NCBI GenBank assembly: GCA_947475715.1
Contig: CANJNY010000029.1
Coordinates: forward strand, 1 to 44,049
DNA: 44,049 nucleotides
Direction of reading: 5' to 3'
DNA from: Prolixibacteraceae bacterium
GTDB lineage: Bacteria; Bacteroidota; Bacteroidia; Bacteroidales; Prolixibacteraceae
Part shown: positions 2,264 through 39,364 of the stretch, piece after piece
Layout: every line of letters begins with the position of its first letter
How positions within the stretch are numbered: the first letter of the stretch is position 1
The notes under the pieces: model-generated
Seen by the model: only the letters and a program-made list of their open reading frames with translations
Databases searched by the model: none
Told to the model about the DNA's origin: nothing
Position numbers and translations under genes: made by a program

Positions 2264-2328
2264 TTTGTCCGTTTGTTTTATTGCTTTCTTGTGTAACGTC
2301 AGAGGTTATATTATCTATGATTTGGCGA

Positions 2329-2808
2329 TTATTTATTGTTTTTAAAAAATCGTCTCGGGAAGACTAGTAACCCGTAATTTGTAAAATCATTTCTGCTCTT
2401 TGGCCGGTGGTGGGCCAGATGGGCATTGATAATGGACCGGGTAAATGAATTGTCGATTTTTGAAAAGAATGGAATTTTAATCCGCTGATGGATAAGAATA
2501 TCGTGAATCCAGAAATAGGTTAAACCGTATAATGAAATTCCTATGCCGCTAAAAATCATTTTAGGGTAATCAAAGTAGAATCCCAAAATTAAAAATACAA
2601 TCGCAGGGGTGGCATAGACAATGAAAAACAGATCATTTTTTTCCATTCCTGAAAAAGTCATTTCATGCATGGCCGCTTTTTTGTGATCGTTGACATGGTG
2701 ATCCTGATGCCATTTCCACAAAAAGCCGTGCATCACAAATTTGTGATTAGACCATGCTACAAACTCCATAAAACAGTATGCTCCGATCAGGAAAACAATA
2801 TCTAACAT
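2329..2808 (-). CDS. crtZ: Beta-carotene hydroxylase-like di-iron membrane hydroxylase (CrtZ/fatty acid hydroxylase superfamily)
   Basis: The 159-aa membrane protein has the histidine clusters of the non-haem di-iron hydroxylases: NHKFVMHGFLWKWHQDHH near residues 21-38, HDILIHQ near 105-111 and NAHLAHHR near 130-137. The size and His spacing fit short CrtZ-type carotenoid 3-hydroxylases better than long sterol desaturases. Hydrophobic segments lie between the His clusters, as expected for an integral membrane enzyme with cytoplasmic His ligands. The expected reaction is hydroxylation of the beta-ionone ring (beta-carotene to zeaxanthin). No crtB, crtI or crtY is in the window, so the substrate is inferred from family. 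The gene is monocistronic and convergent with the DUF4139 gene. Confidence 0.8.
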   Translation of the reverse strand: MLDIVFLIGAYCFMEFVAWSNHKFVMHGFLWKWHQDHHVNDHKKAAMHEMTFSGMEKNDLFFIVYATPAIVFLILGFYFDYPKMIFSGIGISLYGLTYFWIHDILIHQRIKIPFFSKIDNSFTRSIINAHLAHHRPKSRNDFTNYGLLVFPRRFFKNNK

Positions 2809-3148
2809 AAAAAATCGATTCTATTTTTTCCAAATATAGTTTTTTTTTGGGTCTATGAGCCTTGGTGTGGGTATTATATTTGACTTTACCTGCCGCAGGC
2901 TTTTGTGGAATTATGTAACGAGATTAAACAGATGTTATTAGTATTAAACCCTGAAGTTGATAAATTTTTTTTCGCCACTAAAACACCAAGACACTAAAAA
3001 GGCACGAAAGAAATTTGTTAGATGCATTTTAGTCCCGCAAGTGAGGGATAGTGTTTTCGTGATTTAGTAGCAATTTTTTATTTTGGATCATTAAGAAAAC
3101 AGCGCTTAATATTTAACTATTTTTGAGAAGAACCAATTTTTCAAATAG
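2809..3148. other. Non-coding gap between crtZ-like gene and phosphoesterase
   Basis: This 340-base AT-rich gap has no supported reading frame. Its main content is a degenerate interspersed repeat at about 2971-3100 (separate entry). The rest should carry the promoters of the diverging genes; I could not place them confidently. Confidence 0.6.
2971..3100. repeat. Interspersed degenerate inverted repeat, copy A
   Basis: The element opens with GCCACTAAAACACCAAGACA and closes with the tract ATTTTGGATCATTAAGAAAA. The left half is rich in CAAAACACC and the right half in GTGTTTTCGTG, its complement, so the whole can fold as a long imperfect hairpin. A copy at 19281-19414 shares both boundaries and the same order of blocks. 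It carries no gene and looks like a small non-autonomous palindromic element. Confidence 0.6.
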
Positions 3149-4060
3149 ATGATCGATTTTATAGGTGATATCCACGGCCACGCAGACAAGCTGAGTGAAT
3201 TACTCGAAAATCTTGGATATGCAACAAAAAATGGTGTTTACTGCCATCCCACCCGAAAAGTATTGTTTATCGGCGACTTTATTGACCGTGGCCCGCAGAT
3301 CCGTCGGACTCTGGAAATCGTCAGGCCTATGGTAGAATTTGGTAATGCCATTGCCATCATGGGAAATCACGAATATAATGCGCTCTGCTTTCACCGGGAA
3401 GAACACGAAGGGGGACATTTGAGAAAGCATTTGATTATCAATATTATCCAGCACTTTGAGACACTTAAACAGTTTCAGAACCGACAGGATGAATATGAAG
3501 ATTATCTTGAATGGTTTAAAACACTTCCACTCTATTATGAAGCTGCGGATTTTAGGGCCGTCCATGCCTGCTGGGATGTGGATCATATTGATTACCTGCG
3601 CGCTATATTAAAGCATGACCGTTTAACCGAGAAGGTGCTTCATGAGTCGGTGAAAATGGGAACCAAACTGTTTCAGATTTTTGATGAAACTCTTAAGGGG
3701 AAAGAAGTATTTATGCCTAAAGGCTTGTATTTTAGGGATAAAGATTCTAATGTTCGTAACGAACTGAGAATAAAATGGTGGAAAGATCCTTCAAATTTAT
3801 CCTATCACGAGATGAGCGTTCTTCCGATAGAAAATCTTCCGGATACAATAATCGATAAATCTTTAACCGGCCATGTCAGACCTTATTCACCCGATGAGCG
3901 ACCGGTCTTCTTTGGCCATTACTGGCTTACGGGAACTCCTCATTTACTTAGGGAAAATGTTTGCTGTCTCGATTTTAGTGTTGCCAAACATGGCTTCCTC
4001 ACCGCCTATCGGTTTGATGGAGAAAAGGAGTTGTCGAATGATAAATTCGTATTTGTATAA
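3149..4060 (+). CDS. Calcineurin-like metallophosphoesterase (PrpE / Ap4A hydrolase-like)
   Basis: The 303-aa cytosolic protein carries the metallophosphatase signature in order: IDFIGDIHGHADKL at the N-terminus (D-x-H), FIGDFIDRGP near residue 40 (GDxxDRG) and IAIMGNHEYNA near 70 (GNHE). Later His residues (VHACWDVDH near 140; LTGHVRPYSP near 245) supply the remaining metal ligands. The family includes bis(5'-nucleosyl)-tetraphosphatase PrpE and PPP-type protein phosphatases; sequence alone does not separate them. There is no leader peptide, and the gene stands alone with a repeat upstream and a 600-base gap downstream. The start fits a normal domain beginning two residues before the first motif. 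Confidence 0.87.
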   Translation: MIDFIGDIHGHADKLSELLENLGYATKNGVYCHPTRKVLFIGDFIDRGPQIRRTLEIVRPMVEFGNAIAIMGNHEYNALCFHREEHEGGHLRKHLIINIIQHFETLKQFQNRQDEYEDYLEWFKTLPLYYEAADFRAVHACWDVDHIDYLRAILKHDRLTEKVLHESVKMGTKLFQIFDETLKGKEVFMPKGLYFRDKDSNVRNELRIKWWKDPSNLSYHEMSVLPIENLPDTIIDKSLTGHVRPYSPDERPVFFGHYWLTGTPHLLRENVCCLDFSVAKHGFLTAYRFDGEKELSNDKFVFV

Positions 4061-4657
4061 TCGCCATAACCCCGGGTGAAGTTTTGAGAATGGGTGTGTC
4101 CTGTCCGGATATTTGTTTGCCGATTGAACCGATAGAATTGGTTATCAATCATGCCACCCTTTCCGGGTTTTGCAGGTGATAATAACGTGGTTTTTGCTAT
4201 AATCATTTTACCCCTTCGGGATTGGAATCTTCAAGTTTCAATGGATTAGACGGTTCAGCCATGTTGACGTGTCGCTGTATTGAGGTCCCATCGTGCCGTC
4301 ATGTTTTTTCTTTCTGGAAACCACAACGTGGTTTAAGTTGATTAGCCCCTGGTGGAGCTTGCGTAACCGGGTGTATAAGAATGATCAACAACCCAGCCCT
4401 GAGGGGGCTGAAGGTTGATCTCACGAAATAGTAATAATTAACAGTGGGGTGCACTTTAAATCTGTGCTTCCGTTTTGACGCTTTGTTGTGGCAAGGAGCC
4501 GTTCCGTCCTATGGTGGTGCAGCACCTTTGCGGGGCTTCGATCGCGGACGGTCCACCGTCACTATTGGCTTTCCCGGGGTTGAGCAATGCCATGAGGTTT
4601 ATCGTACCGTCCGATTGAGATGCAGAACCTTTGTGGTGATTACTTTAACTCTTTAAA
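4061..4657. repeat. 600-base block of degenerate hairpin-forming repeats, non-coding
   Basis: No convincing gene lies here. The stretch is studded with short palindromes: AAACCAC-AAC-GTGGTTT at 4318-4334; GATCAAC...GTTGATC at 4383-4420 with an inner CAGCCC/GGGCTG stem; and GACGGT-CC-ACCGTC near 4547. The phrase AACGTGGTTT occurs twice (about 4186 and 4326). It contains GC-rich phrases such as CCCTTCGGGATTGGAATC and TTTCCCGGGGTTGAGCAATG, which resemble GC-rich intergenic repeats I associate with Bacteroidota genomes. Its higher GC contrasts with neighbouring intergenic DNA. It reads as a decayed multi-unit element. Confidence 0.5.
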
Positions 4658-5851
4658 TTATTCCTGCTTTTTAATGCTTAATGAATCAAAGAAAGCCCTC
4701 GTTTTTGGAATTGCTGCGTAGGCCGATTGCGTATGGCTCAGTTCTCCAAGACCGATAAGTTCAACATTTCCGCCCAATTGCTTCATCCGATTATAGGCAT
4801 TTATGGCATCCTTCGGCGAAACGTCTTTGTCTTTGGATCCATAATACATTCTGAATAATGCATTGGGCTTCCAGTCGAAGGTCTGATTTTCACCGATTTT
4901 ATCAGTAAACCAGTCATGATTTCCCGAACTAAAATCATCCAGAATATCTTTCCTATATAAACTTTCCGGAGCTTTGGGAAGTGCGGCAATAATCTGTTCA
5001 TAGGTGTGGTTCCCATCAAATAGCTGCGGAACTACCGTATCGTAAGGAGCCAATAAAACTGAATTAAGATTTTTTTTGTAAATGTGACAATAGGCATTGG
5101 CCAGATATCCCAGATAAAAAACACTTTTATTCTCAATGGCATAAGGTATACTAATCTCTTTTAGATTATAGGCCCCGACGATTGATGAAGTGGCGACAAG
5201 ATGTAATCCGCTCACCGGGTTCTTCTCAATATAGCGATGGACAGCCGCCGTGGCATGCCCGCCTTGAGAAATTCCGATTAGAAAAAGATCGTTTGTCTCT
5301 TTTTTCGTAAGGGTAGTACAAATTTCTGATCCGATCCTGAGTAAATCCACTACTGCATTAGCTGTAGTTTCTGCATGAAGATAGGTGTGAATCTCTTTTG
5401 AAATGCCAAATCCGATATAATCAGGAACCACACAGAGATAGCCTCCACCTGCAAAGACAGCAGCAATTCCTAGCCCTTCATCTTCTGAAGGTTTTGATGG
5501 GGAATTCAATCTCTCGCTGTTTGTCCCATGCTGGTAACTTACCACTCCTTTAATTCTTTTATTTCTTGGGAAGGCGAGTAATCCGGAAACCGGAATCTGC
5601 TTGTTATTTTCATCGTTGGTAAAATAGGATACCCGGTATAACTCAATTCCACTGGTTATGCTGATCTTATCCGGAGTTTTTATTTTTTTTACGAAATAGT
5701 TTATAACCGGGCGGGGATAGATTCCTCTGGCCTCGAATTTCAGGCTTTGTAAATCAGGAGTTTTCCTGATTAGTTTAGTGATATTGATTCGCGGAGTGCA
5801 ACCGGTCAGGATTAGCAACAGAAAAATGTACTTCAATAGGTTTATGGTCAT
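4658..5851 (-). CDS. Secreted lipoprotein alpha/beta hydrolase, secretory-lipase-like
   Basis: The 397-aa product has a lipoprotein leader ending LLILTGC (Cys18), so it should sit in the membrane facing the periplasm or the surface. The fold is an alpha/beta hydrolase of the secretory lipase (LIP, PF03583-like) type. It has an oxyanion-site region VVSYQHGT near 105, a nucleophile elbow LIGISQGGHA with Ser195, an acid-loop MYYGSKDKDVSP near 330-345 and a His in GELSHTQSA near 375. The likely reaction is ester hydrolysis, substrate unknown. The gene begins 25 bases after the stop of the LamG protein upstream and is probably co-transcribed with it, which suggests joint action on an extracellular polymer or ester. 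Confidence 0.82.
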   Translation of the reverse strand: MTINLLKYIFLLLILTGCTPRINITKLIRKTPDLQSLKFEARGIYPRPVINYFVKKIKTPDKISITSGIELYRVSYFTNDENNKQIPVSGLLAFPRNKRIKGVVSYQHGTNSERLNSPSKPSEDEGLGIAAVFAGGGYLCVVPDYIGFGISKEIHTYLHAETTANAVVDLLRIGSEICTTLTKKETNDLFLIGISQGGHATAAVHRYIEKNPVSGLHLVATSSIVGAYNLKEISIPYAIENKSVFYLGYLANAYCHIYKKNLNSVLLAPYDTVVPQLFDGNHTYEQIIAALPKAPESLYRKDILDDFSSGNHDWFTDKIGENQTFDWKPNALFRMYYGSKDKDVSPKDAINAYNRMKQLGGNVELIGLGELSHTQSAYAAIPKTRAFFDSLSIKKQE

Positions 5852-5876
5852 TAGAGTATAATTGAAAGATTAAATC

Positions 5877-8597
5877 CTATTTTGATAGTTTCAGATTCAG
5901 CGGTTTTACACTTTCATTCGTGATAAATAGAACCGTATTATAGCTTCCATCGGTATCCCGAACAGTTCCCTGTTTCACTTTCTCAGCTCCGGTAAAATGA
6001 ATATCCCCTTTCGAATTCCACCCTTTGATTACAAAACAGAGGTTGTGAACAGGATTTTCAGGAGTGGCATTCACCGTAAAGGACACTGATTTGTCTGAAA
6101 CATTCAGCACATAAGCACGTTGTTCGGGATCGTAGCTGCCGGCGCACCCAATAAGATTTATTAAACCGGGTGCATGAGTCCACGATTTCGACAAGGGAAT
6201 TAGGTCGGCCGCCGACTTATTCCACATCCCCTCAAGCATAATCTTTTCATAAAAAGGTTTATCTCCTGTCGCTTCCTTGTAAACAGGCAGGTTAACATGG
6301 GTAAACGAACTGTGTGCAGCCCTGTCAGGATAGGAGGCATAGCGGCCATCGGAAGGCATTTGCGCAATAGGCCAGTGATTCCAGGTACAAAAAACAGCAT
6401 AAGGGGTTAGCTCACCGCCATAAACATTGGTTGATTCAAAATTTGTCCCGATTGTAAAAGGATCATATTTCCCTGTATAATTGATCAGCTGAATATTCGA
6501 ATTTTTCGGCTCATCAATGTTTTTGGGAGGTGAATCCTGCCAGTTGTAAATATGTGACTGACCATCTTCGGTAACCATGGTGATGGTATTGGTTCGCTCT
6601 ATAATCTGGTTGGGATGCTGGTCAGGTCCGAAAATAGCCATCGATTCCTGCCACTCGTGGTTCCGCTCACCATCAGTCCAAAGCTGCATTTTCTTAACAG
6701 CCACCCCATCGGGATAGATATAATAATACCAGTCTGACCAGTCGCTCCACCCCGTTTTTTCATCATAATTAGCCAGCACATGTTCCACATCCAATAGCGG
6801 GAAACGCCAGTGAACAACCACTCGTGCAGGTGTATTCTCCAGAATCCTGACATGACTGTATGCAGAGCTTTTGTCAGACATCGGCTCCTGACAACCTTGA
6901 CCTCCCGATTTGCCCCATGTCTCATTAAATTCATTGCTGTACCATTGATTTTTTTCGTTTACAATCATCGGAATATAGCTTACACCTCTCCAGAAAACAA
7001 ATTTGGAGGGGTTTTCGCCCAGACTTACAACCACATCGGCACCCTTGGTAAACCGGAACAGATTATCCCAGCTGTCGTAATATTTTAAAGCAGAATATTC
7101 TGCACCAAACGATTCTCTCTTCTTGCCTGAGGGGAGTATCCGAGCCGGCATCTCAACGCTTGTCACACTTTCATGGGTCGTTTGGTAATTGGCATACGAC
7201 TGTTTTACCTGTTCCGGTGATAAGGCAACATCATAAAGTTTCAGTTCATCCAGTAAACCATCAAATGAGTAGGTTCCCGGGAAAGTGCTGGCTCTGACGG
7301 GATTAATCGGACGCCGCGCTTTTCCCCTTCCAATCTGTAAATCTTTATTCGATCGTTCAATTTTCCCGGGATGGGTTACTGATTTTTCGGCAACTGCCTT
7401 CCCATTTAGATAAAGTGTTAACATACCGCTGCTTTTGCCATAGGTTCCTGTGAGGTGGTACCAGGTTCTTCGTTCAAGATGGATTTTTGCGGTGAGTTCT
7501 TCCCAGATCCCGCCCACTTTAATTTTCAATCCCGGATGACCATCGCCGTCAATACCCAGAAAATACCCTTTTTCTTTAGAGGCTGTCGTGGCGGTATCGA
7601 TGATTTGCGGATGCTGCTTTGCATCAGAGGGTAGTTCTTCTGAAAGATCATCCATTTGCTGAATAATCGGGCACCAGCTCCAGGGATATGCACCAATGGC
7701 AATCCACCCTTCGAGGGTAATCGAATTCTCAGGCTTTGGTGCAAGGGGTGCAGGAACCATTATTGAGGTGCTTACATCATCAAACTGAACCGATGTTCCT
7801 GAGATTCCCCTCCTCCAATAGGTTTTATAACCCATTATAACTGCCGCTGTTCCCGAAATATTTTCATGTGCAGTATCTCCGATCGCTTCGTCGAATCTGA
7901 ACCAGGCCGCGGGTTTTACTATACTGCCTGAAATTACACGTTGCCCACCCTTTTTCTCTGCTTTTAATGAGCGGTGCGGTTGAGTAATCTGTTTATTGGT
8001 AATACCCTCAGGGCTTAAATTAAAGGTTTGATGATATTCAAAAGTGGGATCTGCCCAATCCTCAACCTTTGGGGTCCCCTTCCTGATGCTTCGGCTGATG
8101 CTTCCGTTGGGTGAGAAAGTAAAGTATTCATCAACAAACCCATTGTTAATCTCGCCCATTAAGGGATTTTTACCACTAAATACAGGTAGATAACGCCAAT
8201 GAATAACCACACGATCACTATTGTTTTCGATAATTTTAACCACAGAAAACGAATTGACTTTATCCGGCATCGTCTGAGTGCCATTGCCTGAGCGGGGAAT
8301 TATCTCTGGGGCATAAAATTTTTCTCCCTGCCTGTTTTCCCAGTAAGGTAAATAACTGCTACCTCTCCAGAAAACGAACCTACCATTCTCTTTTCCAAAG
8401 TCAACAATAATGTCAGCATAATCTCCGGTCCTTGACACCTTTTCAAACGAATCATTTGTTACGATATGGGTGTAATATGCGCCAAAATCCGCATTGACAT
8501 TCAATGCCTTTATGCCTTTAGCAGAAGTTGATACAGCAATATATAGAATAATTAATATGCAATATTTTGGATTTATAAAATTATTTTTTTGTTTCAT
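5877..8597 (-). CDS. Secreted 906-aa LamG-domain protein with a duplicated flanking module
   Basis: A Sec leader (hydrophobic stretch about residues 12-26) leads into three parts. Module A (about 38-160) contains FVFWRGSSYLPYW at 74-86, then MPDK at 110 and VIHWR at 131. A concanavalin-like LamG/Laminin_G_3 domain spans about 230-466 (SITLEGWIA, WYHLTGTYGKSSGMLTLYLN, FDGLLDELKLYDVALS). Module B (about 497-650) repeats the pattern of A with FVFWRGVSYIPM at 533-544, MSDK at 573 and VVHWR at 594. LamG domains bind glycans or proteins. The modules resemble no family I can name. A catalytic role is not proven; a polysaccharide-active or -binding surface protein is the best guess. It is the first gene of a probable operon with the lipase-like gene. 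Confidence 0.75.
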   Translation of the reverse strand: MKQKNNFINPKYCILIILYIAVSTSAKGIKALNVNADFGAYYTHIVTNDSFEKVSRTGDYADIIVDFGKENGRFVFWRGSSYLPYWENRQGEKFYAPEIIPRSGNGTQTMPDKVNSFSVVKIIENNSDRVVIHWRYLPVFSGKNPLMGEINNGFVDEYFTFSPNGSISRSIRKGTPKVEDWADPTFEYHQTFNLSPEGITNKQITQPHRSLKAEKKGGQRVISGSIVKPAAWFRFDEAIGDTAHENISGTAAVIMGYKTYWRRGISGTSVQFDDVSTSIMVPAPLAPKPENSITLEGWIAIGAYPWSWCPIIQQMDDLSEELPSDAKQHPQIIDTATTASKEKGYFLGIDGDGHPGLKIKVGGIWEELTAKIHLERRTWYHLTGTYGKSSGMLTLYLNGKAVAEKSVTHPGKIERSNKDLQIGRGKARRPINPVRASTFPGTYSFDGLLDELKLYDVALSPEQVKQSYANYQTTHESVTSVEMPARILPSGKKRESFGAEYSALKYYDSWDNLFRFTKGADVVVSLGENPSKFVFWRGVSYIPMIVNEKNQWYSNEFNETWGKSGGQGCQEPMSDKSSAYSHVRILENTPARVVVHWRFPLLDVEHVLANYDEKTGWSDWSDWYYYIYPDGVAVKKMQLWTDGERNHEWQESMAIFGPDQHPNQIIERTNTITMVTEDGQSHIYNWQDSPPKNIDEPKNSNIQLINYTGKYDPFTIGTNFESTNVYGGELTPYAVFCTWNHWPIAQMPSDGRYASYPDRAAHSSFTHVNLPVYKEATGDKPFYEKIMLEGMWNKSAADLIPLSKSWTHAPGLINLIGCAGSYDPEQRAYVLNVSDKSVSFTVNATPENPVHNLCFVIKGWNSKGDIHFTGAEKVKQGTVRDTDGSYNTVLFITNESVKPLNLKLSK

Positions 8598-8759
8598 TGA
8601 AGCAGATTTTATTTTATTTTGCGACGGTGAATTACATTTTATTCAGCCCAAAGATAACTGTATTTGGCACTATTTTCCCGGAACAAATTCTAAATTTGTC
8701 ATAGCTAAAACTAAAAGCTAATTTAGCGTTAACATTTATCAAACAAAATAATATTTTCC
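8598..8759. promoter_or_regulatory. Divergent promoter region between LamG operon and Old Yellow Enzyme operon
   Basis: On the plus strand TTTG at 8663-8666 and TAAATTTG at 8691-8698 (24-base spacer) fit the Bacteroidota -33/-7 pattern upstream of the ATG at 8760. On the minus strand TATCTTTG at 8656-8649 fits the -7 element for the gene starting at 8597, with only a weak, distant TTTG. The two candidate promoters interleave, so the divergent units may be co-regulated. This is pattern matching only. Confidence 0.4.
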
Positions 8760-9824
8760 ATGTCAAAACTATTTTCTCCGTTGGATATTAAATCGGTAAC
8801 TTTTAGAAATCGACTGGTTATATCACCGATGTGCCAGTATACGGCAGTTGATGGATTTGCCAATGACTGGCATTTGGTCCATCTGGGGAGTCGGGCCGTA
8901 GGTGGTGCCGCTTTGATTATTCAGGAGGCAACGGCTGTTTCACCCGAGGGGCGTATTACCCCCGGAGATTTGGGGATCTGGAATGATGCTCACATCAAAA
9001 AGCTGGAAGCGATAACCCATTTTATTCATGGTCAGGGGGCAGTGGCCGGAATTCAACTGGCACATGCCGGACGAAAAGGGGGGTGTGCATTGCCATGGAA
9101 TGGGGGCAAGCAACTTAAACCAACAGAGGGTGGCTGGGAAAGAGTTTCGGCCTCGGATCTTCCATTTGCCCCTGATGATGTATCTCCCATATCATTAGAT
9201 AGTTCGGGTATTTCAAGAATCATTAACTGTTTTAAGATTGGTGCACAACGGGCACTTGAGGCTGGTTACAAGGTTGTCGAAATTCATGCTGCACACGGTT
9301 ACCTGATTCATCAGTTTCTCTCACCACTAAGTAACCACCGTAAAGATCAATACGGAGGAACCTTTGAAAACAGGATCAGGCTGTTGCTGGAGATTGTCGG
9401 AGCCATAAAATCTGTCTGGCCTGAAGAATTTCCTCTTTTTGTACGGATTTCAGCAACTGATTATTATGATGGCGGGTGGAATCCGGATGAGGCTGCCAAG
9501 CTTTCTGCAATCCTGAAAACTCAAGGTGTCGATCTGATGGATTGTTCTTCTGGAGGTCTCGTTTATGATGCAAAAATTCCTTTTAGCCCCGGATACCAGG
9601 TGTTGTTTTCTTCAAGGATCCGCAAGGAGGTTGGCATTTTAACCGGCGCAGTGGGATTGATCACCACTGCAGAGCAAGCGGAGAATATTTTAGACCAGGG
9701 AGATGCTGATCTGATTTTGATAGGCAGGGAATCGCTGCGTGAACCCTATCTTGCTCTCAAGGCTGCCTCCGAACTAGGGGATGATATATCCTGGCCGCTG
9801 CAATATCTTAGGGCTAAATTATAA
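8760..9824 (+). CDS. namA: NADH:flavin oxidoreductase, YqjM-type Old Yellow Enzyme
   Basis: The 354-aa FMN-dependent TIM-barrel enzyme belongs to the YqjM (thermophilic-like) class of ene-reductases. Visible hallmarks are SPMCQYTA with the flavin-tuning Cys25 and Tyr27, IQLAHAGRKG near 98-107, the substrate-anchoring pair HAAHGYL (His176 and His179), LSPLSNHRKDQYGG near 187-200, and LILIGRESLREPYL near the C-terminus for phosphate binding. Full length matches the family (about 340-360). It should reduce activated C=C bonds with NAD(P)H in the cytosol; the physiological substrate is unknown. The next gene starts about 61 bases downstream on the same strand, so an operon is possible. Confidence 0.9.
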   Translation: MSKLFSPLDIKSVTFRNRLVISPMCQYTAVDGFANDWHLVHLGSRAVGGAALIIQEATAVSPEGRITPGDLGIWNDAHIKKLEAITHFIHGQGAVAGIQLAHAGRKGGCALPWNGGKQLKPTEGGWERVSASDLPFAPDDVSPISLDSSGISRIINCFKIGAQRALEAGYKVVEIHAAHGYLIHQFLSPLSNHRKDQYGGTFENRIRLLLEIVGAIKSVWPEEFPLFVRISATDYYDGGWNPDEAAKLSAILKTQGVDLMDCSSGGLVYDAKIPFSPGYQVLFSSRIRKEVGILTGAVGLITTAEQAENILDQGDADLILIGRESLREPYLALKAASELGDDISWPLQYLRAKL

Positions 9825-9840
9825 TTGTTTAATCCTTATC

Positions 9841-9868
9841 CCTGTGAGGGTTTCAAACCTGTCAGTGC
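9841..9868. repeat. Short palindromic remnant in the gap before the PQQ dehydrogenase
   Basis: CCTGTGAGGGTTTCAAACCT followed by GTCAGTGC is an imperfect palindrome centred on TTTCAAA. It resembles CCTGACAGGTTT...AAACCTGTCAGG palindromes that I associate with intergenic regions of Bacteroidota. It lies in the 61-base spacer between two co-directional genes and could act as an attenuator or be a decayed repeat. Confidence 0.35.
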
Positions 9869-9885
9869 TAAAAAATATTTATTTG

Positions 9886-12105
9886 ATGAAAAATAACAAT
9901 TCAAACTGCCTCCGCTGCATCTTTTTTATTGTATTTGCGGTGCTGTGTACCGGACTTATTTCCTGTGTAAATCCAGCAACATCCCCTTCGGATTACAGTG
10001 GATGGGGTACTTATGCCGGAACAAAGGATGGCATACGCTATTCATCAAACGACCAGATTAATGCTGAAAATGTATCTAAACTTCAGGTCGCCTGGACCTA
10101 TAATTCGGCAGATAAAGATACCGGCAACCGCACACAGATTCAATGTAATCCAATAATGGTCGACGGAATACTTTATGGTACTACACCCCGGGTTAAACTT
10201 TTTGCATTGAATGGTACGACGGGTAAACAGCTTTGGATTTTTGATCCGGCCCTGGAGGATACCGCCACCAAAAAGAATCCCGCCTCCTATTTTAAGGTGT
10301 GTCGCGGTGTTGTTTTCTGGAAGGATGAGCAAGGGACCAATCAACGGATTCTTTACGGCGTTGGATCCAGAACCTATGCGATCAATGTGGCTGATGGAAC
10401 ACCGATAAGGAGTTTTGGACAAAACGGGTACATCGATCTGACTCAAAATATTGATCGGGAGCCAGGCACTTATAATCCCTACATCAGTAGTACTACTCCA
10501 GGCGTTATTTTTAAAGATTTGATTATTATGGGAATGCGGTTGAGCGAAGATGCAGATGCTGCCCCAGGAACGATAAGGGCTTTTGATGTACGTACAGGAA
10601 AACTCAGATGGCAGTTTCATACTATTCCTCATCCCGGAGAAAAAGGTTATGAAACCTGGCCTGATAAGGATGCGTGGAAAAAACTTGGAGCAGCAAATAA
10701 CTGGGGAGGCATGTCCCTGGATGAGAAGCGTGGCATCGTGTATGTGCCGACCGGCTCGGTGGGTGGCGACTTTTATGGAGGATTCCGCAAAGGGGAGAAT
10801 CTGTATGCCAATTCACTCCTGGCTCTGGATGCAGCTACTGGTAAATATTTGTGGCACTACCAGACTATTCATCACGATTTATGGGACCGTGATTTACCAA
10901 CTAATCCTAATTTGATAACATTGAAGCAAAACGGTAAGGAGATCGATGCAGTGGCTCAGATTACCAAACAAGGATATATCTTTATTTTTGACAGAGTGAA
11001 TGGGCACCCTCTTTTTCCAATAAATGAAATTGCTGTTCCTTCATCCGATTTGCCCGGTGAGGAGGCCTGGCCAACGCAGCCAGTTCCAACATTGCCGGAA
11101 CCCTTTGCACGCCAGAAGTTCGGTCCTGAGGATATCACCGATCGCACTCCTGAAGTGTATGCACAGATGAAGAAGCGGTTTGATAACGTTAAGTATCATG
11201 GGATGTTTGATCCCCCAAGTAAATCCAGTTCAATGATATTTCCCGGTTTTGATGGCGGTGGTGAGTGGGGAGGTGCTGCCGTTGACCCTGCTTCGGGAAT
11301 ACTCTATACAAACAGCAGCGAGATGCCCTGGATATTGACAATGATCGATAAAATTGAAGGTGATAATACAACTTTAAAAGGGAAGGGTCAGACTGTTTAC
11401 GGTAAATATTGCATGGCCTGTCATGGCCCCGGGCTAAAGGGAAACGGAAGCTCATTCCCTTCCCTGGTCGATATCCGGAAAAAATATAATCAGGAACAGA
11501 TTCTGAGCTTATTAGGTACCGGAAAAAATATGATGCCTGCCTTTAAACAGATTTCAGAAAACGATAAAAAAGCGTTGGTCTCCTTTCTGCTCAAATCTGT
11601 GCCAAAAAGTTCAGACTCAAAACAGGATTTAGCTAAAATTAAAGAGGCACCTCAGAACCATTCGATCATGGATGATGTCCCTTATTCGATGACCGGTTAT
11701 AACCGTTTTCTGGATAAAGATGGTTACCCGGGTATAAAGCCTCCCTGGGGAACATTAAACGCCGTAGATCTGAACAGCGGAAAATTACTTTGGAAAGTTC
11801 CCCTTGGGGAATATCCCGAGCTCACGGCAAAGGGAATTCCAATCACCGGAACGGAAGGCTATGGCGGGCCGCTTGTAACCAAAGGGGGACTCGTCTTTAT
11901 CGCCGCCTCAAAAGATGCACGGCTGCACGCATTCAATAAGAAAACCGGCAAACTGTTATGGCAGGCTCAGCTTCCTGTACCGGGATATGCAACTCCGGCC
12001 ACCTACACCATCGACGGGAAACAATACGTGGTCATCGGATGCGGTGGAGGTAAGATCGGCAGTAAATCGGGTGATCAGTATATCGCCTTTGCATTGCCGG
12101 ATTGA
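9886..12105 (+). CDS. PQQ-dependent dehydrogenase (membrane glucose dehydrogenase-like) with embedded cytochrome c domain, lipoprotein
   Basis: The start at 9886 (MKNNNSN) is chosen over an in-frame ATG at 9781 because it places a leader with lipobox LISC directly at the N-terminus and avoids overlap with the previous gene; this gives 739 aa. The protein is an eight-bladed PQQ propeller of the mGDH type (GWGTYAGTKDGIRYSS, VYVPTGSVGGDFYGG, HHDLWDRDLPTNPNL). Near residues 497-575 a cytochrome c domain is inserted, with haem motif CMACH (Cys509 to His513) and a likely axial Met in KNMMPAF. The propeller resumes afterwards and ends GGGKIGSKSGDQYIAFALP. It should oxidise sugars or alcohols in the periplasm and pass electrons internally to haem. 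No PQQ synthesis genes are in the window. Confidence 0.87.
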   Translation: MKNNNSNCLRCIFFIVFAVLCTGLISCVNPATSPSDYSGWGTYAGTKDGIRYSSNDQINAENVSKLQVAWTYNSADKDTGNRTQIQCNPIMVDGILYGTTPRVKLFALNGTTGKQLWIFDPALEDTATKKNPASYFKVCRGVVFWKDEQGTNQRILYGVGSRTYAINVADGTPIRSFGQNGYIDLTQNIDREPGTYNPYISSTTPGVIFKDLIIMGMRLSEDADAAPGTIRAFDVRTGKLRWQFHTIPHPGEKGYETWPDKDAWKKLGAANNWGGMSLDEKRGIVYVPTGSVGGDFYGGFRKGENLYANSLLALDAATGKYLWHYQTIHHDLWDRDLPTNPNLITLKQNGKEIDAVAQITKQGYIFIFDRVNGHPLFPINEIAVPSSDLPGEEAWPTQPVPTLPEPFARQKFGPEDITDRTPEVYAQMKKRFDNVKYHGMFDPPSKSSSMIFPGFDGGGEWGGAAVDPASGILYTNSSEMPWILTMIDKIEGDNTTLKGKGQTVYGKYCMACHGPGLKGNGSSFPSLVDIRKKYNQEQILSLLGTGKNMMPAFKQISENDKKALVSFLLKSVPKSSDSKQDLAKIKEAPQNHSIMDDVPYSMTGYNRFLDKDGYPGIKPPWGTLNAVDLNSGKLLWKVPLGEYPELTAKGIPITGTEGYGGPLVTKGGLVFIAASKDARLHAFNKKTGKLLWQAQLPVPGYATPATYTIDGKQYVVIGCGGGKIGSKSGDQYIAFALPD

Positions 12106-21314: not shown

Positions 21315-23201
21315 ATGAACAAATTATTTGGTTATAATGGATCTATTCTTCATATAGACCTGGAAAAAAAAACAACAAAGGTTGAAAATCCTTCGGAGAG
21401 TTGGTATCGTCATTTTGCGGGCGGAGGATTGATGGGTACAGCAATACTTTACCGTGAAACCCAACCTTTGACAGATTGTTTTTCGCCTGACAGCAGGCTT
21501 ATATTTCTATCAAGTGTTATTGCAGGTATTGAAGCGCCAGGACTTGCACGTTTTAGTGTAGTATCAAAATCTCCGTTGTCAAATGGAATAGCAGAATCTC
21601 GTTGTGAAGGTCCATTTGGAACCTATCTTAAAGGGTCAGGTTTTGATGCAATAGACATTACTGGACAGGCGGAAGATCCTGTATACATTATCATAGAAAA
21701 TAAATCAGTTAAATTTTTATCAGCAGATAAAATTTGGGGTAAAACAACATTAGAATCTACTAAAATACTTGAAAGTATTCATGGGAAAGAGGAAATTAAG
21801 GTTGCTGTTATTGGCCAGGCAGGCGAAAACCTTATTCGATATGCAAGTATCGTAACAGATTATTCAAACCAGGCCATGCGCATGGGAACAGGTGCTGTTA
21901 TGGGTTCTAAAAAATTGAAGGCATTGGTATTGAAAGGAAAAAAAATGCCTAAGGTTTTTGATCAGGAAGGCCTGGAGGAATTAAAGAAAGTTTTTCAAAA
22001 AAAAATGCTGGAAAATACACTTAGCATGTGGCAAAAAAATCCACCTGGTTTTGCGGCTTCTGCCGATCTTTCGGATTATGAAACGGCTTATATAGGATAT
22101 GAAAATTATCAGTCAAATCTCAGAGTAGAAAATTCGCATTATACACGACAAGAGTATATGCCCTATTTTAGAGGTGATAAGATTTGCCCTGGATGCCCAA
22201 ACGATTGTATTAAATTTATAGCTGCCGATTTTGAGTTGTTTCCTGAAGCCACAGGGATTCATCAGGAGGTGACCGGCTCTTTAGGTCCCAATATTGGAAA
22301 TGAGGATTTAGCAGTTATGCTAAAAGCAAATACGCTTTGCAATTTATATGGCCTTGACCCTGTTTCGCTTGGATTTACGCTGAGCTTTGCTATGGAATGT
22401 AGCAAGAATGGGCTACTTCCCGAACACCTAAAAGGGAGCAGAAAATATAATTTTGGAAATTCTGATGAGTTATTATCTCTAATTGATGACATCGTTTTTA
22501 GAAAAGGTTTGGGAGATTTATTATCTGAAGGTGTTCGAATTGCGGCTAACCGAATTGGGAATGGGGCTGAAAGATTTGCTCTTCATGTAAAGGGTATTGA
22601 AATGGTAAGTTTTGAACCTAGATCAATGACTAATTTGGCATTGGGTTATGCAACAGCTGCGGTAGGACCAAGATATGATATCTGTGAACATGATTGGGAT
22701 TTTGATACAACATCAGGCTGGGAGCATACTTTGGATAACGCTCGAACGCTTGGAATTTCCGAACGGGTAGCAATGGAACAATTAAGTTTTAAAAAAGTAA
22801 AGAATTACAAGGAATTAAATAATCTTTGGAGTGCTTGTGATGCGATGAATTTATGCATATTCGCAAGTGCCCCAACAAGGGTATGGAGTCTTGAAATGAT
22901 TGCAAAACTAATTCATGTCATTACCGGATGGCAAACAAGTTCATATGAATTTATGAAGTGGGGTGAAAGAAGGAACCATTTAATGCGGCTTTATAATAAC
23001 CGGGAAGGATTGACTACTACAGATGATACTTTGCCTGCCAGATTTTTTGAAGAAACAATTCTTACCGGAAGATTCAAAGGCGTGGCCCTTAACAAAAAGG
23101 TATTTAAAGAGATGATACTATTTTATTATGAAATGATGGGCTGGGATGAAAATGGTATACCCTTAAAAGCAACTATTGTGGACAATGGATTAGATTTATA
23201 A
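21315..23201 (+). CDS. aor: Aldehyde:ferredoxin oxidoreductase (tungsten/molybdenum-bispterin enzyme)
   Basis: The 628-aa product is full length for the AOR family. The N-terminal domain has LFGYNGSILHIDLEKKTTKV and the pterin-contact region PGLARFSVVSKSPLSNGIAE followed by RCEGPFGTYLKGSGFDAID. The [4Fe-4S] ligands are seen as CPGCPNDC (Cys291, Cys294, Cys298), with the distal Cys514 in CDAMNLCIF. The enzyme oxidises aldehydes to acids with ferredoxin in the cytosol and needs a W- or Mo-bispterin cofactor. No cofactor genes or ferredoxin lie nearby. By eye the gene is more AT-rich than neighbours such as the Old Yellow Enzyme and sits beside an IS remnant, so acquisition by transfer is possible. 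The exact aldehyde is unknown. Confidence 0.9.
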   Translation: MNKLFGYNGSILHIDLEKKTTKVENPSESWYRHFAGGGLMGTAILYRETQPLTDCFSPDSRLIFLSSVIAGIEAPGLARFSVVSKSPLSNGIAESRCEGPFGTYLKGSGFDAIDITGQAEDPVYIIIENKSVKFLSADKIWGKTTLESTKILESIHGKEEIKVAVIGQAGENLIRYASIVTDYSNQAMRMGTGAVMGSKKLKALVLKGKKMPKVFDQEGLEELKKVFQKKMLENTLSMWQKNPPGFAASADLSDYETAYIGYENYQSNLRVENSHYTRQEYMPYFRGDKICPGCPNDCIKFIAADFELFPEATGIHQEVTGSLGPNIGNEDLAVMLKANTLCNLYGLDPVSLGFTLSFAMECSKNGLLPEHLKGSRKYNFGNSDELLSLIDDIVFRKGLGDLLSEGVRIAANRIGNGAERFALHVKGIEMVSFEPRSMTNLALGYATAAVGPRYDICEHDWDFDTTSGWEHTLDNARTLGISERVAMEQLSFKKVKNYKELNNLWSACDAMNLCIFASAPTRVWSLEMIAKLIHVITGWQTSSYEFMKWGERRNHLMRLYNNREGLTTTDDTLPARFFEETILTGRFKGVALNKKVFKEMILFYYEMMGWDENGIPLKATIVDNGLDL

Positions 23202-31004: not shown

Positions 31005-31907
31005 ATGCAAAACAGACGAGAATTTTTGAAAATTTCAGCTGCAGGATCGCTAACCATGATGTTATTCGGCGCTGCAGGATGTACTACTGGCGTTTTAAAA
31101 GACCGGAAAAGCTTTGGTGTTGGTATTCAGCTCTATACTATTCGTGATGCAATGGCTGCAGATGCCAGGGGTACCTTGAAAAAAGTATCCGACATTGGTT
31201 ATAAAAACCTCGAATTAGCGGGTTATTCTGATGGGAAATTTTATGGTTTTGCACCTGCCGAATTTAGTAAGATTGTAACGGATCTTGGAATGGTAAATTT
31301 AAGCAGCCATAGCATGGTGGAAGCACCATCTATTTCGCTTGATAAAGCCAAGCTTATGGCCGATGCTCATGCGGAACTGGGAGTTAAATTCTGCATTAAG
31401 CCATGGATTGAACCTGTTGACCGTAATATTGAATCGTATAAAAAGATGATTGGCGACGTAAATGAAGTGGCTAAAATTACAAAAGGCGTCGGAATTCAAT
31501 TTGGATATCATAATCACAATTTCGAGTTCGCCAATATAAATGGGGTAGTCCCTTATTTTGATCTCTTTTTGCCGGGTATGGATGCTGATCTGGTAACTAT
31601 GGAATTAGACCTTTTCTGGGCATCTAAGGCTGGTCAGGATCCGGTTGCTATGTTTAACAAGTATCCTGGCAGATTCCAGCTCCTTCATATGAAAGATATG
31701 CTTCATAATCAGCCACCTTTCTATGAAGTTATCAAGGATGATGTGTGCAGTGTGGGAGCCGGCGTAATCGATTTCAAAAAGATCCTCGCTGCAAAACAAA
31801 TAGCAGGTGCACAATACATTTTTGTTGAAGATGATAATCAAGGCAATGGTAAACCATTTGAAGGGATCGACTTAAGTATTAAAAATCTCACGACCAAGAT
31901 TCTCTAA
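31005..31907 (+). CDS. Sugar phosphate isomerase/epimerase-like TIM barrel with Tat leader
   Basis: The 300-aa protein begins MQNRREFLKISAAGS, a twin-arginine signal (R-R-E-F-L-K). The hydrophobic stretch ends in GAAGC, a possible lipobox, so it may be a periplasmic lipoprotein. The mature part is a xylose-isomerase-like TIM barrel (AP_endonuc_2/IolE type): VGIQLYTIRDAM, YKNLELAGYSDG, FGYHNHNFEF near 165-174 with metal-binding His/Glu, MELDLFWASKAG near 199-210 and LHMKDM near 225. Exported members of this group are frequent in Bacteroidota and probably epimerise or isomerise sugar derivatives; the substrate is unknown. It is followed by a strong terminator. Confidence 0.87.
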   Translation: MQNRREFLKISAAGSLTMMLFGAAGCTTGVLKDRKSFGVGIQLYTIRDAMAADARGTLKKVSDIGYKNLELAGYSDGKFYGFAPAEFSKIVTDLGMVNLSSHSMVEAPSISLDKAKLMADAHAELGVKFCIKPWIEPVDRNIESYKKMIGDVNEVAKITKGVGIQFGYHNHNFEFANINGVVPYFDLFLPGMDADLVTMELDLFWASKAGQDPVAMFNKYPGRFQLLHMKDMLHNQPPFYEVIKDDVCSVGAGVIDFKKILAAKQIAGAQYIFVEDDNQGNGKPFEGIDLSIKNLTTKIL

Positions 31908-33327: not shown

Positions 33328-33762
33328 ATGAAATCAAATCCTATAACTTTTCGTGCCGATGAGGAGATCGCATTGATGCTCAATACTATGCATGTTCGCC
33401 AAACAACCGCAACTCTTTCTGTGCTTGAACTCTTTACTGCTATTCGTAAAGAAACAGTCCGTGAACTTAAGGGCCGATTCAGCCGGAAGGAAGTCATGGC
33501 ATTAGTTGACAGTTATAAAGTTTCTACTCCTGGTTTACAGAGTATGGCTACAAGTTACGTTCTGATAGGACACACCAAGGATGCTGAGCGTGATTTTAAA
33601 AGCACCTCTTCCAATAATGCCAATTTAAATGTTCTGATTGACAAATTAAAGATGCTAACCTCCGGTCAGGCTGCAATCCTTCAGCTTGAGCTTTGGGCTT
33701 ACTGGAATCGTAATGAGGATGATGTCCCGGACCTGGAGAAATTTATTGCCAGGTTTGTGTAA
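33328..33762 (+). CDS. Hypothetical protein, 144 aa
   Basis: I do not recognise this family. The product begins MKSNPITFRADEEIALMLNT, which loosely resembles the N-terminal strand and helix of ribbon-helix-helix proteins (FRADEE-x-x-x-L), then becomes helical (LELFTAIRKETVRELKGRFS, RKEVMALVDSYKV). It has a Trp/Glu-rich end (LELWAYWNRNEDDVPDLEKF). There is no leader peptide, so it is probably cytosolic. Codon use is normal and it has its own long upstream region, so the gene is likely real. A DNA-binding role is only a hint from the first 30 residues. Confidence 0.65.
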   Translation: MKSNPITFRADEEIALMLNTMHVRQTTATLSVLELFTAIRKETVRELKGRFSRKEVMALVDSYKVSTPGLQSMATSYVLIGHTKDAERDFKSTSSNNANLNVLIDKLKMLTSGQAAILQLELWAYWNRNEDDVPDLEKFIARFV

Positions 33763-34273: not shown

Positions 34274-36616
34274 ATGCACCCAAATGCTATGAGAAAATAC
34301 AGCAGAAGAGATTTCATTCTTAATTCCGGTATATTCACCGGGATATTATTTTTCCCGATACCCTTTCCCTTTCCCTCTGCACCTATGCTTTCTGGTTGTG
34401 CAGATGTGATTTTAACCCCAATATCCAATGAGGATCTATTTTCATATATAAATCGGGTAAAAGGGAACTTTGATCAGACTCTTTACAGACAAATTGTTGG
34501 ATCTGCAAATACGTTCAAAGAGGGGGATCTTGCTCAGGGAGTTGCTGCTTTTGATGATAATTCACGGATTAATGCAAGGAAATTATTAACAAATACAAAA
34601 ATTAAAGAGCTCTGCCAAAAACCACTTTTTACAGACGATATCCTTACCCTGATTCAAAATACAACGGATCAACCATTATTCAATTCTATTTCCAACCAGA
34701 CTTTAGGGGAATTCAAATTTTTTTTACTCCGGAGTCCGGAGAAAGATATTCAATCAATTTTACCAGGATTAACCAGTGATCTCATTGGGTGTTTGGTGAA
34801 GATCCTCAGTAATGAAGAGCTGATAACTATCGGGCAGAAAGTGTTTAACCCCTTACCCGGCAGTAAAATTGGTTCAAAGGGATATCTGAGTGCACGTATT
34901 CAGCCCAATTCCCCTACGGACAATCCGGACGATATTATGATGCAGGTGTTTAATGGTTGGTCGTATGGTGTAGGAGACTTACTTCTTGGAACTAATCCTG
35001 TTTCAAGTGATCCGGAATCTGTTGCAAAAATAGAAAACACCCTGCGTGATATTCTAAGCACATTCGGTCTGGAACAGATTATGCCCCATAGCGTTTTGTC
35101 TCATATCGATATCCAGTCAGAGGTTGAAAACAGGAATCCGGGAACTACGGGAATCTGGTTTCAAAGTTTGGGAGGAACTGTAAGTGCAAATAAGACTTTT
35201 AATGTTACCGTCGAAAAGATGTTGAGCCATGCCTCTAAACGGACCGGTCAATATGGGTTATATGTTGAGACCGGACAAGGTGCCGATTTTACAAATGGCA
35301 ACGGTGAAGGATTTGACATGGTTGTTCATGAATCACGCAAATATGGGTTTCTACGTGCCTTAAAAACCCAAATCTCTAAGGTGCAGCCAAAACACTTCTC
35401 TGGTCCATGGGTTCATGTAAATGATGTAGCCGGTTTTATCGGTCCGGAGGTATTCAAGACTCGTGAGCAATTAGTCAGGTGCTGCCTCGAAGATACTGTC
35501 ATGGGAAAACTTCATGGACTTACAATCGGTCTGGATATCTGTTCCACATTGCATATGGACATTACACTGGACGATCTTGAGTGGTGTATCGATCAGATTA
35601 TGCCTGTAAATCCTGCCTATCTGATGGCTCTTCCCACAAAAAACGATCCAATGCTTAGCTATCTTACCACCGGTTTTAATGACCATGTCAGAATCCGCGC
35701 TAAATTCGGGTATAAGGTTAATGATGCGATGTGGGAGTTTTTCAAGCGGATTGAGATCATCGATCAAAACGGAAATGTTACTTCACATTTCGGCGATCCT
35801 TTGTGGGTCTACTTTAAATACAGAATTGCAAAAGGAGATCTAAGAAGCCACGATGAAATATATACCGAAGGGATGAAGTTAATCTCAGAAATTGAAGAGC
35901 GAGGTGTTCCTATTGCTCAGGGCTACGGCAAAAATACCTGGGTCCTTGAGCCGAAACTTGACAGGAAAATCCATGCATTATACGCTGATTCAAAGATTTG
36001 TCTCTGGAGAGAGATGTCTGAGAATTTTTTACTCTCCATTCCCAATCCGGTATATCTGCAAACGACCTCGACGGACAGAAGAGATTATATTTATCATCCT
36101 CCAACCGGTGAATTAATGAATGAACAATCGGTTGACAAATTGATCAGTTTGAGCAATAGCCGTAATGGCATAATTCCGGATGTTCAGATAATAATCTCTG
36201 ATGGATTGAATGTTAGTGCACTTACCGATGAAGGACATCTTAAACCTTTTCTGGATTATCTCAATATCGAATTGATCAAGGCTGGTTTACGCGTATCGTC
36301 AGATCATATCATAATCAGAAATGGGAGGGTAAGAGCCGGATACAGATGCGGTGAATATCTATTTGGAAAAGATTCGGTAATCGATAACCCGAAGGGAATT
36401 ATTCACATCATTGGTGAACGACCGGGCTCGGGACATCATAATTTTTCAGCATATATTTCGGCACAATTGATCAGCAATTGGAAAATGCGAGGTAAATTAG
36501 ATCATAATAGCTCTAAAGTGGTGTCCGGCATTTCTGATACTGCTTTATTGCCTGAATTAGCAGCAAATCAAACGGTAAGGATTTTGGCTGAAATGCTTGA
36601 TTCTGTTCGTAAGTGA
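34274..36616 (+). CDS. eutBC: Ethanolamine ammonia-lyase, EutB and EutC fused in one chain, with Tat leader
   Basis: A start at 34274 or, better, 34289 (MRKYSRRDFILNSG) gives a twin-arginine leader and a hydrophobic run ending SGC. EutB spans about residues 50-580: NEDLFSYINRVKGNFDQTLY, ARIQPNSPTDN (Arg208, Gln210), LGTNPV (Asn241), YVETGQG (Glu332), AGFIGPE (Phe388), GLDICST (Asp421), LMALP (Met451). These correspond, at constant offsets within each block, to E. coli EutB Arg160, Gln162, Asn193, Glu287, Phe329, Asp362 and Met392 as I recall them. EutC follows at about 590-775 (PDVQIIISDGLN, IIRNGRVRAGYRCGE, IHIIGERPGSGHHN). The EutC N-terminal part is shortened. The enzyme splits ethanolamine to acetaldehyde and ammonia with adenosylcobalamin. 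No other eut or microcompartment genes are present. Confidence 0.9.
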   Translation: MHPNAMRKYSRRDFILNSGIFTGILFFPIPFPFPSAPMLSGCADVILTPISNEDLFSYINRVKGNFDQTLYRQIVGSANTFKEGDLAQGVAAFDDNSRINARKLLTNTKIKELCQKPLFTDDILTLIQNTTDQPLFNSISNQTLGEFKFFLLRSPEKDIQSILPGLTSDLIGCLVKILSNEELITIGQKVFNPLPGSKIGSKGYLSARIQPNSPTDNPDDIMMQVFNGWSYGVGDLLLGTNPVSSDPESVAKIENTLRDILSTFGLEQIMPHSVLSHIDIQSEVENRNPGTTGIWFQSLGGTVSANKTFNVTVEKMLSHASKRTGQYGLYVETGQGADFTNGNGEGFDMVVHESRKYGFLRALKTQISKVQPKHFSGPWVHVNDVAGFIGPEVFKTREQLVRCCLEDTVMGKLHGLTIGLDICSTLHMDITLDDLEWCIDQIMPVNPAYLMALPTKNDPMLSYLTTGFNDHVRIRAKFGYKVNDAMWEFFKRIEIIDQNGNVTSHFGDPLWVYFKYRIAKGDLRSHDEIYTEGMKLISEIEERGVPIAQGYGKNTWVLEPKLDRKIHALYADSKICLWREMSENFLLSIPNPVYLQTTSTDRRDYIYHPPTGELMNEQSVDKLISLSNSRNGIIPDVQIIISDGLNVSALTDEGHLKPFLDYLNIELIKAGLRVSSDHIIIRNGRVRAGYRCGEYLFGKDSVIDNPKGIIHIIGERPGSGHHNFSAYISAQLISNWKMRGKLDHNSSKVVSGISDTALLPELAANQTVRILAEMLDSVRK

Positions 36617-38845: not shown

Positions 38846-39364
38846 ATGCTCAAAAAATCCGGTTCCGCAAAAAAATGTCTCCCGATCTTAATCGTTTTAT
38901 TATTTAATTTGGCCATCTACTCCTGCAAAAAGGAAGAAGCCTCTCTTTTGACTCCTATTGAGACTGCAATGGATAGCTTTGTTGCGACCTTGGTAAAGAC
39001 CCCACCTACAGCAGCCGATCTCTCTGATCGGATTAAAAATTACCTTATGGCACAACCTAAAACCTTTTACGGATCCACGGTTTCAATGCTTGATAAAAAT
39101 GGCAAGGTTGCTTTAAGTCCCTATTGGTACCGATCGAACAATGCGCTTGTCTTTTTGGAATTAACAATCGATACAACTTATCGTATAAACACGCTGGAGT
39201 GGCTACGGACTCCTATAGACGGAGGTAAAGCTATTTGGACTGCTCCATTTTTCGATGCCGGAGGAGGGAATATATGGATGAGAACACGCGCCGTGCCTGT
39301 TTACGTAAATGGTAAAATTATTGCAGTTGCAACGACTGATATAGAGATTGCAAAACCAAATTAA
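38846..39364 (+). CDS. Lone Cache-domain lipoprotein
   Basis: The 172-aa protein has a lipoprotein leader (LPILIVLLFNLAIYSC) and a single small extracellular-type sensor domain. The region from about 75 to 168 reads as a Cache fold: VALSPYWYRSNN, EWLRTPIDGGKAIWTAPFFD, AGGGNIWMRTRAVPVYVNGK and IIAVATTDIEI. These motifs are those of dCache sensor domains of chemoreceptors and RsbU/PP2C phosphatases (WYxxP...GkaxWTxPyfDxGgGnixMxTyxxPvy). Here no membrane-spanning output domain is attached, so it probably binds a small ligand and works as a free lipoprotein or partner. The ligand is unknown. The neighbours give no hint. Confidence 0.72.
   Translation: MLKKSGSAKKCLPILIVLLFNLAIYSCKKEEASLLTPIETAMDSFVATLVKTPPTAADLSDRIKNYLMAQPKTFYGSTVSMLDKNGKVALSPYWYRSNNALVFLELTIDTTYRINTLEWLRTPIDGGKAIWTAPFFDAGGGNIWMRTRAVPVYVNGKIIAVATTDIEIAKPN

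Follow-up and report, generated by a model that had tools for sequence, protein, structure and literature searches.

A single-chain EutB-EutC lyase with a putative twin-arginine leader, predicted to act outside the cytoplasm of a Prolixibacteraceae bacterium

Introduction

Adenosylcobalamin radical enzymes are, to our knowledge, enzymes of the cytosol and of microcompartments, where ATP can be spent to exchange a cofactor that has been damaged. The canonical ethanolamine ammonia-lyase of E. coli (PDB 3abo) is made of two chains, EutB and EutC, neither of which carries a leader, and is encoded in an eut operon together with shell and EutA genes. The A. baumannii EutBC works without a microcompartment and without EutA; it consists of two subunits encoded by eutB and eutC, and export is not reported in the excerpts of PMC9426561 used here, in which the N-terminus of Salmonella EutC is described as bearing a microcompartment signal.

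A second comparison is offered by the reductive dehalogenases (RdhA/PceA), which carry Fe-S clusters and belong to another enzyme class than the lyase described below. They are not known to be adenosylcobalamin radical enzymes. RdhA is a precedent for the export of a corrinoid enzyme by the twin-arginine (Tat) route, since excerpts of PMC6095959 describe it as pre-folded and moved by an RRXFXK Tat signal.

Here we analyse a stretch of 44,049 nucleotides (contig CANJNY010000029.1, hereafter the window) from a Prolixibacteraceae bacterium. One of its genes encodes a protein with the same two domains, fold and substrate-site residues as canonical EutB and EutC, in one chain with a leader, which is 33% identical to E. 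coli EutB over the EutB part. Like the A. baumannii enzyme (excerpts of PMC9426561), it would work without a microcompartment and without EutA; unlike it, it is not made of two subunits. Domains and site residues place the protein with the EutB/EutC ethanolamine ammonia-lyases, from which it differs in being one chain, in its export-type leader and in its position outside an eut operon. The single chain lowers the case for a canonical EutBC, but not that for an enzyme resembling ethanolamine ammonia-lyase, because two subunits are usual for EutB/EutC and not needed for activity. We give a probability of roughly 0.6 to the reading of the window protein as a predicted exported single-chain ethanolamine ammonia-lyase.

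Results

Both subunits are encoded in one reading frame

The features of the gene are listed in Table 1. The reading frame has no internal stop. Pfam places EutB (PF06751, E 8e-134) at residues 71-504 and EutC (PF05985, E 8e-27) at residues 567-776, with scores of 447 and 94.5 bits that are both over the cut-offs (25 and 25.8, respectively). With the NCBIfam models, the EutB score is over the cut-off (589.7 vs 554 bits) and the EutC equivalog score is under it (64 vs 230 bits). The single chain of 780 residues proposed in an earlier sequence-only reading is therefore real, as is the insertion that it had noted in EutB: about 14 additional residues lie between the equivalents of R316 and N324 in the alignment with E. 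coli EutB. The EutC N-terminus is indeed shortened, as had also been claimed, but this is ordinary. In several unfused Bacteroidota EutC proteins, too, the match to E. coli EutC does not begin before about residue 56-70. The missing part is the one that bears the signal in Salmonella (excerpts of PMC9426561), and it is likewise missing in these unfused proteins.

Table 1 Features of the lyase gene in the window.
Feature	Coordinates	Strand	Basis
Single-chain EutB-EutC ORF, 780 aa	34274..36616	+	ORF and Pfam
Leader, from the likely start ATG (34289) up to the EutB core region	34289..34405	+	Start common to L001 and L002; canonical EutB without it
RRDF of the twin-arginine motif SRRDFI	34304..34315	+	RR motif in 22/33 members
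LSGC, lipobox-like	34388..34399	+	Not in L001-L003; similar Cys in six relatives
EutB domain (PF06751)	34484..35785	+	Pfam, structure match
Loop exceeding its E. coli EutB counterpart by about 14 residues	35357..35419	+	Alignment
Joining stretch between the two Pfam domains	35786..35971	+	Pfam boundaries
EutC domain (PF05985)	35972..36601	+	Pfam, structure match

Translation probably starts at the second ATG (residue 6), because relatives L001 and L002 have MKKYSRRDF at this place. Apart from these two ATGs, the initial 120 codons contain just two in-frame starts, ATG 38 and GTG 45. The possibility that the leader is a start-site artefact, with close homologues beginning after residue 45, was rejected: the relatives start earlier and have the leader too, and the motif survives with either plausible start.

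A single-chain family occurs in several phyla

Single-chain relatives were found in Bacteroidota, Planctomycetes, Deltaproteobacteria and on Sinorhizobium plasmids. A scan of genome contigs yielded 18 relatives from 40 pattern-matching stretches, with 51-78% identity to the window protein; all 18 were confirmed as single chains with an N-terminal leader, which suggests that the combination of the two is more than chance. Among plasmids, 148 records matched, 32 of them with at least 80% query cover. A stricter rerun matched 144 records (31 with at least 80% query cover), the best 25 of which come from Sinorhizobium, Pararhizobium or Ensifer and have 53-54% identity.

The distribution of the fused gene is patchy. 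Thirteen of the 395 genomes of the window's phylum gave a match, which corresponds to a full-length fused protein in two genomes (the host itself and G191) and to an EutB of canonical length in the other 11. Among 61 relatives, five matches were obtained, one canonical and four fused, and the latter all fall within the 18 genomes of the host's own genus. Another scan covered 294 genomes from the phylum to which G467, the carrier of the Pirellula-labelled locus L014, belongs. The 22 matching genomes comprise 12 with the fused leader family, nine with an EutB of canonical kind and one with only a weak EutC-like match. Two of these nine (L079 and L080, from two genomes) read through into EutC in one chain. 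Together with L083, from a Methylocystis plasmid, they resemble the window protein in having EutB and EutC fused, but they lack the leader and their EutC match is stronger (171 and 169 bits for the two that were scanned, against 94.5 for the window protein).

A careful tree of the EutB core was built from 32 family members, 13 canonical proteins and the three leader-less fused proteins, leaving out L082, which had been flagged as a long branch in a quick tree. A branch with 100/100 support separates all 32 members from the other proteins, and the quick tree with 33 members gave the same grouping. The leader family, the leader-less fused proteins and the canonical proteins are each set apart from the other two groups by a branch; the one leading to the family is very long (about 3.7-3.8 changes per column). 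Two separate fusion events are not claimed, since both trees are rooted by the choice of outgroup only, and one fusion with later divergence fits equally.

The sequence-only reading had called an exported fused form new. A distinct single-chain family does exist, but it is not restricted to the window. The annotations encountered on its members read plain EutB. Among the matches listed for open-licence PMC, no description of an exported or fused EutB-EutC lyase was found, and no open-licence PMC paper combining ethanolamine ammonia-lyase with twin-arginine and periplasm was found.

Site residues and fold are retained on a divergent background

We take R160, Q162, N193, E287, F329, D362 and M392 (E. 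coli EutB numbering) to be the substrate-site residues. Their retention, proposed from the sequence, was confirmed: all seven align in the window protein (7/7) and in six relatives. The first six are identical in 23/23 members and in 13/13 canonical EutB proteins. Met392 is kept in 20/23 members and replaced by Ile in the other three, as it is in 1/13 canonical proteins. In the EutC part, D167-G168-L169, R206 and G227-ERPG are conserved in the family. E257 was dropped as a mark of a lost cofactor site, as canonical EutB proteins also differ from one another at this position (7 S, 3 E, 2 G, 1 A; n=13).

The AlphaFold model of the window chain (19 sequences, mean pLDDT 75.6, pTM 0.74; residues 1-35 and parts of the barrel below pLDDT 50) matches E. 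coli EutB (3abo_A) best among PDB entries, with E 4e-22 and TM 0.78 by target. Listeria EutB chains come next, followed by chains of E. coli EutC (TM 0.68-0.72 by target) and then by diol dehydratases. The predicted fold of the single chain thus matches both EutB and EutC of 3abo. In nine pairs, dN/dS ranges from 0.06 to 0.14 in the core and from 0.13 to 0.81 in the leader, the top value being based on four differences and synonymous change in the window pairs being close to saturation.

At 73 EutB and 19 EutC positions, the family and the canonical proteins share a residue that is conserved to at least 90% in both. In contrast, the family departs from the canonical proteins at 96 EutB and 30 EutC positions that the latter conserve; for instance, S295 is Thr and A296 is Asn in 23/23 members. 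Given these changes and the very long branch, substrate or chemistry may have moved. The protein would then be an exported single chain for another amino alcohol, or one with shifted radical chemistry, and "ethanolamine lyase" would be the wrong name, which would also fit the absence of eut genes nearby. We consider such a shift unlikely, as it sits poorly with six invariant substrate-site residues and a Met392 kept in most members.

Leader sequences suggest possible export by more than one signal

In the window protein, the motif SRRDFI (residues 10-15, with RRDF at 11-14) is followed by a hydrophobic stretch, and the host genome encodes TatC. Leaders were classified in 33 members: the window protein, L001-L018, L021, L023, L024, L027, L069, L071-L077, L081 and L082. 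Omitted were L070 (a near-copy of L069), L022 (the second S. meliloti copy), L045-L047 (the same genes as L001, L011 and L003) and the other rhizobial plasmid matches. With start sites picked by hand, a leader of some kind is present in 31/33 members. An RRx[FVL] twin-arginine leader occurs in 22, the window protein included, which bears out the proposed twin-arginine leader as a sequence motif. R-K or R-T stands in place of RR in seven (L004, L005, L006, L016, L017, L018 and L027), all of which except L027 have a lipobox-like Cys. Two leaders (L007 and L010) are Sec-like, an assignment made by eye and not by a predictor, and two members (L081 and L082) have none. The RR motif is found in 0/13 canonical EutB proteins and in one of the three leader-less fused proteins (L083), with no hydrophobic stretch behind it.

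LSGC, the possible lipobox of the sequence-only reading, is present at residues 39-42 of the window protein but is not shared by its three closest relatives (L001-L003); a Cys occupies a comparable position in six flavobacterial relatives.

Several observations were counted against Tat export: the two members without a leader, the seven without the second Arg, the two Sec-like leaders and the modest hydrophobicity of the leaders, whose peak is above that of the remaining EutB part in just 17/33 members. Hydrophobicity by itself is weak evidence for a leader. A first look at the extended frame of L077 (G745) showed one TGA; this and the lack of a leader in L081 and L082 possibly reflect loss of export or assembly faults.

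The leader could instead be an uncleaved membrane anchor, or go unused, so that the enzyme would remain on the cytoplasmic side. The leader-less members and the modest hydrophobicity would agree with such a location, and excerpts of PMC9426561 place the A. baumannii EutBC, which has no microcompartment, at the cell membrane. An anchor, though, requires neither RR, nor a Sec-like leader, nor a lipobox-like Cys. The RR motif of 22/33 members, the two Sec-like leaders and the Cys of six R-K/T members are different signals for the same outside place, which makes a cytoplasmic anchor improbable.

An RR leader ending in Cys (MQNRREFLKI...GAAGC) is also found on a xylose isomerase-like TIM barrel protein at 31005-31907 of the window. 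In this host, export may be common among TIM-barrel enzymes.

Host genomes encode Tat and adenosyltransferase components

The host genome (98.94% complete) encodes one EutB, TatC and a PduO-type cobalamin adenosyltransferase; no EutA match was found in it. Four places encode B12-binding domains; two of these lie in frames (1235 and 726 aa) whose sizes would suit MetH and methylmalonyl-CoA mutase. EutB is single-copy in each of 18 distinct genomes (21 handles, three pairs being copies). TatC was found in 29/29 genomes of relatives, once as a sub-cut-off fragment, and a PduO-type adenosyltransferase in 27/29. The search covered that type only; the lack of a match in the genomes of L001 and L010, like the lack of an EutA match in the host, was counted against the exported-lyase reading. 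EutA matches at E 1e-3 or better occur in 13/29 relatives' genomes, and over the cut-off in 10/29. Each covers only 48-133 of the 475 positions; the frames, 420-461 aa long, are probably FtsA-like.

The 20 window ORFs scanned with Pfam include no eut or shell genes, in agreement with the sequence-only reading. No riboswitch was detected at the gathering threshold in the window and L001-L009, and no partner gene common to loci across phyla was found. Neighbours recur within groups. For instance, an M1-peptidase-like gene lies upstream of the lyase in Leeuwenhoekiella, a gene of the beta-lactamase family neighbours it in L004 and L018, and L014 has a BamB/PQQ-like ORF upstream, a relative of which occurs in L015. 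Seven loci of the L014 phylum (L069-L074 and L076) have PSD1/PSCyt ORFs (cytochrome-like; PF07587, PF07583, PF07635) within several kb, and four have DUF1501 ORFs; the Pfam names come from ORFs of L069, L072 and L074, the rest being assigned by similarity. Such ORFs are probably very common in Planctomycetes.

Further neighbours were observed at single loci or at two. Downstream of the lyase, the window (38846-39364) and L009 (8540-9091) encode small, lipoprotein-like PDC sensor-domain proteins (PF22673) that share 50% identity over 150 positions; at these two loci, the protein might act as a sensor for a ligand in the vicinity of the lyase. Immediately upstream, the window has a 144-aa ORF with no Pfam match (33328-33762), a relative of which adjoins the lyase in opposite orientation in L003 (5376-5861). 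In L021 (S. meliloti pSymA, 2287-11839), the lyase comes after adhP, phosphoketolase and two large carbohydrate-related genes. The window also encodes a PQQ alcohol dehydrogenase with a cytochrome c domain (9781-12105) and an aldehyde ferredoxin oxidoreductase (21315-23201), which, though far from the lyase, are possible users of the aldehyde.

Behind the lyase of L010 (2630-6280), a 260-aa ORF with no Pfam match, a relative of which is also found behind the lyase of L007, is followed by genes for an ABC ATPase, a Peripla_BP_2 protein and a FecCD permease. It is very improbable that the family consists of exported corrinoid-binding proteins for scavenging or storage with no lyase activity: this transporter and the lack of an EutA match in the host would suit such a role, but the transporter occurs at one locus only, and the invariant substrate-site residues would be unneeded for mere binding.

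Discussion

Both subunits lie in one chain, an export-type leader recurs across phyla, and the site residues and EutC motifs are kept, as the sequences show. The window protein is most likely a Tat-exported, B12-dependent amino-alcohol lyase, predicted to reside in the periplasm or at the cell surface. We infer its export, cofactor loading and catalysis as follows. The fused chain would fold in the cytoplasm and there take up adenosylcobalamin from the host adenosyltransferase. Tat transports folded proteins, and the loaded, folded chain would cross the membrane by this route. Two separate chains would each require a signal, unless one hitch-hiked with the other; fusion would carry both subunits across with one signal. 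Acting either in the periplasm or as a lipoprotein of the envelope, the enzyme would split ethanolamine, or another small amino alcohol of this kind derived from membrane lipid, into ammonia and an aldehyde outside the cytosol. The ammonia would be freed for uptake, and the aldehyde would stay outside without need of a microcompartment. The weakest point of the export picture is presented by the Sec-like members L007 and L010, in which the cofactor would need to be loaded outside. The FecCD/Peripla_BP_2 transporter behind the lyase of L010 may bear on such loading, though as a single case.

Whether the whole clade, in several phyla, works as an adenosylcobalamin radical lyase in the periplasm or at the surface, as a compartment-free alternative to the Eut microcompartment, is in our judgement an evenly balanced question. 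If so, it may be asked how the cofactor reaches an exported enzyme and how the enzyme lasts without a reactivase. Some bacteria might then exclude a toxic aldehyde by moving the lyase out, as opposed to walling it in. The plain EutB annotation would conceal the family, so far little noticed, and the named strains among its members (Leeuwenhoekiella and Sinorhizobium) mean that the system can be tested. A B12 enzyme known as two intracellular proteins occurs here as one chain with an apparent export tag, in a distinct family of its own.
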